A DNA stretch of 64,000 nt from Mycobacterium montefiorense (GTDB lineage: Bacteria; Actinomycetota; Actinomycetes; Mycobacteriales; Mycobacteriaceae): positions 62,001 to 126,000 of the forward strand of contig NZ_BFCH01000001.1 in assembly GCF_003112775.1 (NCBI RefSeq), read 5' to 3'. Numbering within the stretch: the first letter of the stretch is position 1; each line of letters opens with the position of its first letter. Shown piece by piece: positions 52,558-59,761 of the stretch. Made by a program: the position numbers and the translations under genes. The notes beneath the pieces were generated by a model. That model had not been told where the DNA came from. It saw only the letters and a list, made by a program, of their open reading frames with translations, and did not search any database.

Positions 52558-53382
52558 TTAGGGAGAACGTATTTCACCAACTTCTCTGAAGCTTTCTGAC
52601 GCGCCGGGCGTGGAGAACAGCGATCTCGGGGTGGCCTGCGGCAACGTGGTGTGGTCGACACTATTCATTGTGCGGACAAAGGCCGAACCCACTTCAGGGC
52701 GAGCGATTGCTTCCGAGATGGGTCGCGAGGCGTCGGGACGAGCCGCGAGCGTGGTCGGGTCCGCCATTTGGAATGGCTCGCGCAGGATGTCAACGTTTGG
52801 GCCGTCAAATGGGGTCGCAGCTGGTTCGGAGCCGACGGCAGTGAGTTGGCTCTGGTGGTACTTGCTGGGCGCTCGGGACACCAACTTCGGCGGCCATGTT
52901 GAGTTCGAGCCGGTACCGTCGGCGCTTTTTGGGATGCCCTTGCTCGCGTATTCATCGTCGGGCGGAATCGGAACATCGGGCCAGGGCTGGGCACCGGTTT
53001 TGCCGCCGTCGCCGGCGGGTGCCGTGGTCGCCTGCATCGGTGCCGGCTGCGCTCCCGTCGCCTGCTCGAGGTACTGCCGCCACGCCTGAAGATGACTGAA
53101 CAGCTGCTGGGCGTAGTCACCCGGCGCCGGTGACACCGTAGGCGTGGGCGGCCCCATCGGCGTGGACGGAATTGGTGGCATGAACGGCATTGGCGGCAGG
53201 AACTGCATGAACGGCCCCATGGGCGGAATGAACTGTCCTCCCGCCGGGGCGGTGGGCAGCACCGGCGGCCCGGTCAGGAATGGTGACCCGGCCGCCATGG
53301 CCGTCCACTGCTCGAGAAGCTGTCGCCAATTCTGCAGATAGCAGAGCAACTGCTGGTTGTAATCCGTTGTAGGCATGTTCAT
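52558..53382 (-). CDS. Proline-rich protein with two WRQ-LEQ helical repeats
   Basis: I do not recognise this 274-residue protein. It has two near-identical helical repeats: DYNQQLLCYLQNWRQLLEQ (residues 7-25) and DYAQQLFSHLQAWRQYLEQ (89-107). They are joined by a Pro/Met-rich linker (PPMGPFMQFLPPMPFMPPIP), and a long, probably disordered, Pro/Ser/Thr tail follows. No signal peptide or membrane segment is seen. The ATG follows GGAGGTCATCAA. It is the last gene of the encapsulin-like/isoprenoid operon, 14 nt after the FAD enzyme. Repeated short helices on flexible linkers are common in scaffold and cargo-docking proteins, so a link between shell and enzymes is possible, but this is a guess. 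Confidence 0.7.
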   Translation of the reverse strand: MNMPTTDYNQQLLCYLQNWRQLLEQWTAMAAGSPFLTGPPVLPTAPAGGQFIPPMGPFMQFLPPMPFMPPIPSTPMGPPTPTVSPAPGDYAQQLFSHLQAWRQYLEQATGAQPAPMQATTAPAGDGGKTGAQPWPDVPIPPDDEYASKGIPKSADGTGSNSTWPPKLVSRAPSKYHQSQLTAVGSEPAATPFDGPNVDILREPFQMADPTTLAARPDASRPISEAIARPEVGSAFVRTMNSVDHTTLPQATPRSLFSTPGASESFREVGEIRSP

Positions 53383-53396
53383 TTGATGACCTCCAG

Positions 53397-57795: not shown

Positions 57796-58976
57796 CGGGT
57801 CCGCCCGTGTACGTAGTCCACGAGGTCGGCCAGCATGTCTCGATGGCGGCTGGGTGGGAACCAGTCGAGACTGGCGAGCGCCGCGGCTGCCTTCTGGGCA
57901 TGCCCGGCGGCGATATTCCGCGCGTGCTCGAGCGAACCGACGTCGTGCATCAATTCGTAGAGCCATTGAATGTCGTTAAGGTTCTTGCACTCCGAGGGGT
58001 GGTGTCCCTGCAGCCGAGCCTGGATTTCAGCCCGTCCCGACTGGGACAATTGCCCGCAGGTGGTGAGGCGGTCCAGCAGTTCGATCAGCTCCAACTCGCC
58101 GTCGGGGCCGGGCCGGCGCTTGGCCAGAATCTGTACGGCGCGTTCCTGGTCCTTCGATTCGGCACATCGCAAGGTGTGCAACAGCATCAGGGTTCGTTTG
58201 CCCTCCCAGAGGTCGCCGCCGATCTCCTTGCCATACTCCTGCGGATCGGCCCGCAAGTTCAGCAGGTCGTCGGTGATCTGGAAGGCCGCTCCGAGATGCC
58301 GGCCGAGTGACTCGAGGGGGGCCATTCGCTCGGGTGCAGCCCCGGATGCGATCGCGCCGGCCTGTAGCGGTGTGATGAACGTGTACCAGCTGGTCTTGAG
58401 TTCCACCATCTTGAGGTAGTCGGCGTCGTTGAGCCGCCAGGCGTTGGATCGGACCCAATCGAGTTCCAGCGCCTGGCCGTCGACGGTCAGCCGGGTCATC
58501 TTGGCGATGGCTCGCAGGATGCGCAGCGCAGGCCCGAGCCCGACTCGCTCGACATTGTCGAGCAGCGGTTGCAGCGAGAGCGACAGCATCGCGTCGCCGA
58601 CGTTGACGGCGATCGGCACGCCGTGGTCGATGTGCAGCGTGGGTTTGCCACGCCGCCACCATGATTCGTCTTCGATGTCGTCGTGGATGAGAAATGCGTT
58701 GTGGTAGAGCTCGAGCGTCGCAGCTGTCGGCAGGATTGCCTCCAGATGGCCCCCGAGTCCGAGGCACGCCGCGATGCTCAGTGCCGGCCGCAGCGCCTTC
58801 CCGCCGCGCAACGGGTAGTCGAGGATCAGATCGTAGAGGCTGTTCGACCCACGTTCGTCCGGACCGTACAGCCGCTCGATCTCGCCGTCGCAGGCGTCCT
58901 TGCACAGTGCGAGATAGTCGTCGAGCGCATTCACCGCGATCGGGCCTGCGCGCGCGCCGGGCAACGTCGACGTCAT
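57792..58976 (-). CDS. Trans-isoprenyl diphosphate synthase (polyprenyl synthetase)
   Basis: This 394-residue enzyme of the trans-prenyltransferase fold builds linear isoprenoid diphosphates from IPP and an allylic primer. The first aspartate-rich motif is DDIED at 99-103 (LIHDDIEDESW). The second is DDLLN at 236-240 (QITDDLLNL), with Asn replacing the last Asp of DDxxD. YPLRGGKALRPAL, GQALELDW, ELKTSWYTF and GGDLWEGKRTLMLLH are also family marks. Its ATG shares one base with the stop of the encapsulin-like gene (TAATG), the tightest possible coupling. Chain length cannot be set from this sequence. It is the best cargo candidate for the shell. Confidence 0.9.
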   Translation of the reverse strand: MTSTLPGARAGPIAVNALDDYLALCKDACDGEIERLYGPDERGSNSLYDLILDYPLRGGKALRPALSIAACLGLGGHLEAILPTAATLELYHNAFLIHDDIEDESWWRRGKPTLHIDHGVPIAVNVGDAMLSLSLQPLLDNVERVGLGPALRILRAIAKMTRLTVDGQALELDWVRSNAWRLNDADYLKMVELKTSWYTFITPLQAGAIASGAAPERMAPLESLGRHLGAAFQITDDLLNLRADPQEYGKEIGGDLWEGKRTLMLLHTLRCAESKDQERAVQILAKRRPGPDGELELIELLDRLTTCGQLSQSGRAEIQARLQGHHPSECKNLNDIQWLYELMHDVGSLEHARNIAAGHAQKAAAALASLDWFPPSRHRDMLADLVDYVHGRTR

Positions 58977-59761
58977 TACGGAACGCGGATAACGACGAGC
59001 CCGCGTCGATCCTTCACCCTTGTCACGTACCTAATGCGGACCCGTAGGTTTATGTTGTTCCCGGTCGCGCCGACGACCTCCAGGCTGGGAAGAACGCTGA
59101 CGGCGAGGTCCGCGGCCTCTTCACCTGGCGAGGCGCCCGCCGCGCCGCCGTGTGCTATTCGTTGGCGCCGTCCGAGCAGCCACCCTCGGACGTCGAGGGC
59201 GGTTATGGGTGCGAGGGTATTGACGCGGTGCAGCGAGTTGATGTTCGCCGGAGGCAACAGCACATCGGTGCCGGAATTCCCGGTCGCGATAGTGCTTCCG
59301 GCGAGGTAGTGCAGCCCAATGGTGTCCGTCACGAGACACGACGGAGCGCGGTAGCCCCCATTTTCGACCTTCGCGCGAGCCTCGATCAGCCCAGTCAGAA
59401 GCTGCTGAGTCGTTGGCCACCAGGGGATGTGCACCGTCGTCGCCAGTGTCATGGCCGGATAGAGTGCCGGGAACACCGCAGCATCTACTTTCGCGGCGAG
59501 CTTGACGGTGGCGGCGTTCACCAGCTCGAGCACCTCGTCGGGCGTCGGTGCGACGGCCTGGGCCAGCGACACGATGAAGTCAACGTGTTCCAGCTGAAGC
59601 GGCACATTGGCAAGCGTGGTCAAGCTGTCGTTGGGCACCATCGTCTGGCTGGGATCACCAGTGTCCCAATGCGGGAAGGCCTGCCAGGCAACGCTGCAAT
59701 GCGCGAACGTGTTTTTGACCGCCTGGTTGGCCAGAGCCAACCGCTCCGCACTCATGTACAT
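58976..59761 (-). CDS. Encapsulin-like HK97-fold shell protein
   Basis: This 261-residue protein resembles Family 1 encapsulins by eye alignment with the Thermotoga protein, although identity is low. VPLQLEHVDFIVSL (52-65) matches the LPLIELRATFTLDL segment. EVLELVNAATVKLAAKVDAAVF (76-97) matches the spine helix. QQLLTGLIEARAKVENGGYR (119-138) and the SCLVTDTIGLHYL strand-helix match the P/A-domain region. The C-terminal LEVVGATGNNINLRVRIRYV (227-246) plus GLVVI match the last strands. Encapsulins form protein cages that hold enzymes. I start at the ATG at 59761 after AAGGAG (8 nt); GTG 59770 is open. The next gene, a prenyl synthase, overlaps by one base. No cNMP domain or phage genes are nearby, so a phage remnant is less likely. 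Confidence 0.7.
   Translation of the reverse strand: MYMSAERLALANQAVKNTFAHCSVAWQAFPHWDTGDPSQTMVPNDSLTTLANVPLQLEHVDFIVSLAQAVAPTPDEVLELVNAATVKLAAKVDAAVFPALYPAMTLATTVHIPWWPTTQQLLTGLIEARAKVENGGYRAPSCLVTDTIGLHYLAGSTIATGNSGTDVLLPPANINSLHRVNTLAPITALDVRGWLLGRRQRIAHGGAAGASPGEEAADLAVSVLPSLEVVGATGNNINLRVRIRYVTRVKDRRGLVVIRVP

Follow-up and report, generated by a model that had tools for sequence, protein, structure and literature searches.

Besides the classic peroxidase encapsulin, mycobacterial compartments include a Family 2A one. According to PMC8346489, encapsulins and HK97 phages share a common ancestry, Family 1 shells are characterized by an elongated N-terminal helix, and the transferases of Family 2B carry disordered N-termini of 50–100 residues. 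Cargo recognition is described for two systems: Family 1 targeting peptides take the form SLNIGSLK and are bound in a K. pneumoniae Family 1 shell by residues including 34, 38, 229, and 230 (PMC10960027), and the Family 2A shell SrpI takes up its cysteine desulfurase cargo by way of a disordered terminal domain that bears two conserved motifs (PMC8049743). The locus described here lies in a 64,000-nucleotide stretch of Mycobacterium montefiorense (contig NZ_BFCH01000001.1, positions 62,001–126,000; hereafter the window), in which a gene for a predicted shell protein (ENC, 58976..59761, 261 amino acids (aa)) leads an operon reaching down to position 52558 on the minus strand. The cluster is genuine and conserved and pairs an HK97-shell gene with lipid-type enzymes; the roles of shell and cargo are predicted. 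The reading that is considered probable is a Family-1-like shell holding an oxidoreductase dependent on flavin adenine dinucleotide (FAD) via its tail, for lipid oxidation inside, with shell alleles turned over by recombination.

A confident structure model endowed the 261-aa protein with the HK97 fold that an earlier note on this DNA had claimed, and its nearest neighbors were Family 1 encapsulins. The model helix at residues 5–22 corresponds to the long N-terminal helix of the Family 1 type; 35 of rows 1–36 of the structural alignment started at model residue 1 (2e0z from residue 5), and the Family 2 rows 9bje and 6x8m started at residue 21. The shell aligned end to end with insert-free shells, and no cNMP-binding domain, the Family 2B feature, was found in its 261 residues, which bear no Pfam domain, in agreement with the missing insert reported earlier. 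It shares the whole-chain predicted fold including the N-terminal helix with M. xanthus EncA and the shells of M. tuberculosis, B. linens, and T. maritima, together with a single shell gene of ~260 aa devoid of a cNMP insert. It differs from them in that the structural-alignment identity is 11–20% (rows 1–36), the window shell falls outside PF04454, and peroxidase or ferritin-like cargo was absent among the operon proteins in a Pfam scan. The likeness to Family 2B (terpene cyclase or polyprenyl transferase) is a genomic one, namely the link between an HK97-type shell and prenyl chemistry.

At the sequence level, plain Family 1 membership was rejected by Pfam, NCBIfam, HHalign, and PDB profile searches. 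The window shell matched nothing in Pfam, NCBIfam, or PHROGs, the Family 1 sequence signatures PF04454 and NF041155 included, and neither the single sequence nor a 48-row profile matched PDB sequences at E up to 10. Among the 48 shell rows, PF04454 gave a weak match in four (best E 0.013) and NF041155 in one (best E 0.003); the proposed profile search against the encapsulin families thus reached a few relatives weakly and the window shell not at all. Likewise, HHalign comparison of the 48-row alignment with 12 Family 1 shells, 11 from the genus and one from its order, returned no match, which does not disprove a distant kinship because both alignments are shallow (48 and 12 rows). The statement that the protein is more like Family 1 consequently holds for the predicted fold and fails for the sequence: by its fold the shell is predicted to function in the manner of Family 1, and it is not filed as a member. 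As for the other families, the Family 3 annotation PF05065 gave no match and no peptide-synthesis gene occurred among the scanned operon proteins, and the full fold over 261 aa is unlike the ~100-aa truncated Family 4 (A-domain) encapsulins. The same genome contains a separate classic Family 1 gene (G000 contig C2:463303-464052, PF04454 E 1e-94); since this sole PF04454 gene of the genome lies on another contig, the operon shell is a second shell gene beside the classic one. An encapsulin with a Family-1-like fold, outside the Family 1 sequence family and accompanied by an isoprenoid-type operon, is here called a new variant.

Conservation is unevenly distributed along the shell. By majority fraction per ten residues, blocks 1–40 and 211–220 were the most conserved, followed by 131–150, 221–230, and 241–250, and the most variable ones were 41–60, 101–120, 151–170, and 181–190. 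The conserved N-terminal block appears to cover the K. pneumoniae positions 34 and 38, an approximate placing with an offset of ~8 in the VIA alignment.

The best cargo candidate is the FAD-dependent oxidoreductase (53397..55655, 752 aa), which carries an N-terminal dinucleotide-binding match to NAD_binding_8/Amino_oxidase. Downstream, the last gene of the operon (52558..53382) encodes a protein with two DYxQQLxxxLQxWRQxLEQ copies and a PRSLFS motif, whose proline content of 16.4% is the highest among the operon proteins, followed by the FAD enzyme with 8.1%. The earlier note listed this protein as a separate member of the operon, an assignment that the comparison with a named-genome set of 45 loci overturned (43 from Mycobacterium/Mycolicibacterium, one metagenome-assembled genome labelled Pseudonocardiales, L032, and one Pseudonocardia eucalypti, L045). 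Of 42 operons, 19 have it fused to the FAD enzyme as a C-terminal extension and 23 encode it separately; the proline-rich gene is the detached C-terminal tail of that enzyme, and this motif-bearing tail is why the FAD enzyme is ranked as the best cargo candidate. The count of 42 omits L007 (contig ending inside the FAD gene), the decayed L046, and L032 and L050, which have no FAD gene. A DYxQQLFxYLQAWRQYLEQ-like motif was present in two copies in 33 tails, in one copy in six, and not at all in three. Of these three, L018 contains a run of N; for L031 and L044 the rule of the longest open reading frame (ORF) picked a different frame, and the motif is visible at those loci. An SLF/SLY-type motif occurred within the last 110 residues in 27 of 42 tails. 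The shuffled-tail control yielded 0.006 motif copies per tail and SLF/SLY-type motifs in 0.38 of 42 tails. A tail search of the window genome recovered only the tail itself, and that of seven genomes gave two weak extra matches (E 0.016 and 0.05). By analogy with the two-motif loading domain of SrpI described in PMC8049743, the tail may load the FAD enzyme and its motifs may serve as loading tags; here, the repeated motifs are borne on the proline-rich tail of an FAD enzyme.

These features suggest a possible course of events. The shell protein would assemble into a hollow nanocompartment, in which the FAD-dependent oxidoreductase is likely held, likely through its proline-rich tail; a lipid, likely derived from what the prenyl synthase makes and likely reshaped by the enzyme of predicted CrtC/AttH fold, would then be oxidised inside the compartment. 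The benefit would be that an intermediate that is reactive or poorly soluble, or peroxide, is kept contained. The mycobacterial nanocompartment for an isoprenoid proposed in the earlier note thus retains its footing in the HK97 model and the conserved pairing, its assembly and product remain predictions, and the FAD enzyme replaces the prenyl synthase as the best cargo candidate.

The trans-prenyl diphosphate synthase (PPS, 57792..58976, 394 aa) is supported by PF00348 (E 5.3e-58), as initially assigned, and its nearest solved relative is the geranylgeranyl diphosphate (GGPP) synthase 1wmw (E 9.5e-52). A real compartment might enclose this enzyme instead, as proposed for Family 2B. The one-base TAATG overlap shared by the shell and PPS genes was confirmed in the window, PPS stands beside the shell in 44 of 45 loci, and NF041169 (Family 2 encapsulin cargo) is its second-best NCBIfam match. 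However, the NF041169 score of 177 bits is far below the cut-off of 450, and the match is generic because all 14 control genomes also match below the cut-off; the Family 2B cargo reading of PPS was rejected on this account. In addition, the Pfam domain of PPS starts at residue 49, and the protein contains 4.8% proline and no proline-rich stretch by composition, seemingly unlike the 50–100-residue disordered N-termini given for Family 2B in PMC8346489. The shell/PPS spacing also varies among loci, being -1 in only 6 of 45. PPS as the cargo is therefore held to be unlikely.

The remaining genes lie between PPS and the FAD gene. The enzyme of predicted CrtC/AttH fold (56049..57071, 340 aa) adopted a two-lobed lipocalin-like fold in a fair model, which supports its original identification; its identity to AttH 2ich, kievitone hydratase, the pericyclases CghA/Phm7/Fsa2, and 25-phosphosteroid lyase was only 8–13% in structural alignments, so the reaction is not readable from the fold. 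The label of the SCP2-like protein (55652..56056, 134 aa) proved weaker: PF02036 did match (E 0.003), but with 18.3 bits against a cut-off of 21.3, and among five other members scanned the match was weak in two and not listed in three. Two small conserved proteins complete the set, U152 (57337..57795, 152 aa), with 59–87% identity in 19 relatives and no Pfam family for the window protein, and U90 (57068..57340, 90 aa), found in the operon of relatives and without a Pfam match in the window protein or two relatives. The C-terminus of U152, RLRPEGFA (residues 145–152, window 57340–57363), is almost invariant in 20 sequences. It resembles a targeting peptide, a likeness on which no claim is made; its conservation may reflect a signal in the protein or else a ribosome-site constraint on behalf of the following gene, which overlaps U152 and whose start is preceded by a ribosome-site-like GAGGGG.

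All eight reading frames occupy the positions and the minus strand previously claimed. The shell gene starts with an ATG at 59761 with AAGGAG upstream, and the overlaps from the shell to the FAD gene are 1, 4, 4, 4, 8, and 4 nt, followed by a 14-nt gap before the proline-rich gene. Among the relatives, overlaps of -4 were kept at PPS/U152 (44 of 45 loci), U152/U90 (41 of 43), U90/CrtC-like (43 of 43), and SCP2-like/FAD (37 of 43), and one of -8 at CrtC-like/SCP2-like (42 of 42); these counts are biased towards agreement because start codons were taken nearest the start in the window. The operon genes are probably co-transcribed.

The pairing of the shell with isoprenoid-type genes, noted before in the window alone, is conserved across loci and genus genomes. 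The CrtC-like and FAD genes are kept in 43 of 45 loci, the decayed L046 included; the contigs of L032 and L050 end inside the operon, and Pseudonocardia eucalypti possesses the whole operon. Among 297 genus genomes, the shell was found in 46 (profile, E<=0.001). The FAD gene was present in 47 (E<=1e-60), in one of them with an internal stop, and all 46 shell genomes lie within the 47 FAD genomes; the contig of G278 stops ~380 bases short of the shell position expected from the window spacing. The same organisms may be present both among the named loci and among these genomes, which makes the two sets non-independent. Among 61 relatives, the shell and CrtC-like genes were found in the same five genomes. 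Seven of 396 genomes in a phylum sample matched: six from the genus, counting the window's own genome, and a single weak match over 60 residues (G542). In Mycobacterium lepraemurium (L046, 5646–16908), the operon is decayed, with matches to the shell, CrtC-like, FAD, and cyclase genes spread over several ORFs. No description of this operon was found in the open-licence literature among the matches listed.

The shell gene has a history different from that of its neighbors. Over 861 pairs (the window and 41 loci; L007, L032, L046, and L050 left out), the mean pairwise identity was 50.6% for the shell versus 77.1% for PPS, 69.2% for the CrtC-like protein, and 73.5% for the FAD enzyme; the 12 classic Family 1 shells averaged 79.6% over 66 pairs, a rough control from different genomes. 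In L008/L034, the three enzymes are 91–94% identical (synonymous divergence (dS) 0.15–0.26) and the shell 48% (dS 0.87), and similar gaps were seen in L031/L044 (94–95% vs 62%) and window/L034 (84–87% vs 49%). Among the 15 closest pairs (FAD dS under 0.35), the shell dS exceeded twice that of every neighbor in six, reaching 0.87–1.1 vs 0.15–0.44 in five of these, and the reverse pattern was observed for L034/L040 (shell dS 0.15 vs 0.37–0.38). The rule that dS be more than twice the largest reference singled out the shell in 30 of the 861 pairs when all three neighbors served as references (32, 33, or 60 with two), and each neighbor judged by the other two in 0, 0, and 3 pairs. The opposite rule (dS below 0.75 of the smallest) gave two pairs for the shell (2 or 3 against two), 47 for PPS, 10 for the CrtC-like gene, and 2 for the FAD gene; low dS alone is therefore no sign of exchange. 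In a sliding comparison of L008 with L034 and L038, identity dropped from ~92% to 43–70% about 100 nt after the start of the shell gene and rose again early in the PPS gene; the drop in L031/L044 was smaller (53–80%). The shell data rejected the L008+L034+L038 clade (approximately unbiased test, p-AU 0.00014), which the PPS tree joins at 88/97, below the starred level. The best explanation of the mismatch is recombination that exchanged shell alleles and spared the beginning of the gene as well as the enzymes, driven perhaps by something recognising the outside of the shell. Exchange of the shell gene alone in encapsulins was not described in the open-licence literature among the matches listed.

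Several observations weigh against this reading of shell, cargo, and exchange. Concerning the exchange, nine of the 15 closest pairs, including several that are closest of all, did not show a shell dS above twice that of every neighbor; the converse test, with the L034+L038+L040+L017 clade of the PPS tree, gave no rejection (p 0.151); and the recombining groups were chosen after the pairwise identities were known. If selection on the shell were relaxed or diversifying, fast evolution without any recombination could mimic an exchange and would account for these nine pairs, for the lower mean identity of the shell across the 861 pairs, and for its having the lowest protein identity among five genes in 10 of 10 pairs. 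The shell is under purifying selection (dN/dS 0.16–0.48 in ten pairs). Against fast evolution alone, synonymous sites diverge too in six of the 15 pairs, the identity edges are sharp, the L034/L040 pair runs in reverse, and the shell tree rejects a clade found with the neighboring gene, leaving it quite improbable. Concerning the cargo, the FAD enzyme matches known families solely in its dinucleotide-binding stretch, the tail motif is long and helix-like in comparison with the short Family 1 targeting peptides, and the motif patterns were written after the tails had been inspected.

Concerning the shell, no sequence profile places it within any encapsulin family, and the weak phage-head matches of its relatives are as strong as their Family 1 matches: of the major head families, phrog_10 matched 10 of 48 shell rows (best E 0.003) and phrog_544 two (best E 0.0004), and the shell model matched 261 predicted phage-protein entries of BFVD at E<=0.001. 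These matches are in keeping with the shared descent of encapsulins and HK97 phages that is stated in PMC8346489. They would also suit a domesticated phage capsid with a non-metabolic role, such as nucleic-acid packaging or phage interference, carrying the lipid operon as a passenger, and the shell being the most diverged and exchanged gene compared would be expected if an adversary recognises it. Nevertheless, the window shell had no match in 50,697 phage records and 72,556 plasmids, the shell alignment had no relative among viral contigs, and the shell and enzyme genes co-occur across the genus. Intact head genes (portal, protease, terminase), which the earlier note had named as the critical neighbors, were not found nearby, related loci carrying the same operon genes. 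A phage remnant was thus rejected, and a domesticated capsid is regarded as very unlikely. Shell proteins at E<=0.001 number 647; UniRef labels three of the shell proteins (P0025, P0078, and P0175) "Phage major capsid protein", and most named rows listed are hypothetical proteins.

Finally, the assembly of a cage, the FAD cargo, the order of the chemistry, and the isoprenoid product are inferred. The shell-like protein might form no closed cage and act instead as a scaffold, sheet, or oligomer bringing the enzymes together at a lipid store or membrane; the amphipathic-looking tail repeats could contribute by binding lipid, and the SCP2-like gene, in spite of its weak label, hints at lipid handling. 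Such a scaffold is judged improbable.

Upstream of the shell lies a conserved AAA-GAF-cyclase gene on the same strand (59864..63978), which is split into two frames and reaches the window edge. A ~1354-aa protein of relatives matches 63978–61567 (frame -2) and 61573–59867 (frame -1), and the corresponding protein of L008 contains AAA_16, GAF, Guanylate_cyc, and weak TPR domains. In relatives this large gene precedes the shell on the same strand, and in Pseudonocardia the AAA gene is located downstream, on the opposite strand. Most relatives encode the cyclase protein in a single long ORF, and L027 likewise shows two ORFs; a sequencing error and a recent loss cannot be told apart for the split. 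The cyclase gene hints that a nucleotide signal takes part in operon control, the shell itself being without a cNMP domain. At the place of the operon, M. tuberculosis presumably has PE27/PPE44. Elsewhere in the window, an Actino-pnp RNA leader (RF01688, 53 bits) was located at 33166–33236 on the plus strand, and a 452-aa frame at 49438–50796 on the minus strand, which we take to resemble a 13E12-repeat/DUF222 protein, ends in an HNH-type motif.

A bolder proposal, put forward tentatively and with somewhat less than even confidence, is a fifth kind of encapsulin: an actinobacterial HK97 shell lineage apart in sequence from Families 1–4, with an isoprenoid-oxidising flavoenzyme inside via a fused or separate repeat tail, whose shell is traded between species like a serotype locus, the enzymes staying in place. 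If the shell assembles, some mycobacteria would own a further type of enzyme compartment, devoted to a lipid, and the tail, fused or detached, would be a ready candidate for a loading tag. The exchange of the shell gene alone, if true, would mean that something selects on the outer face of the compartment.

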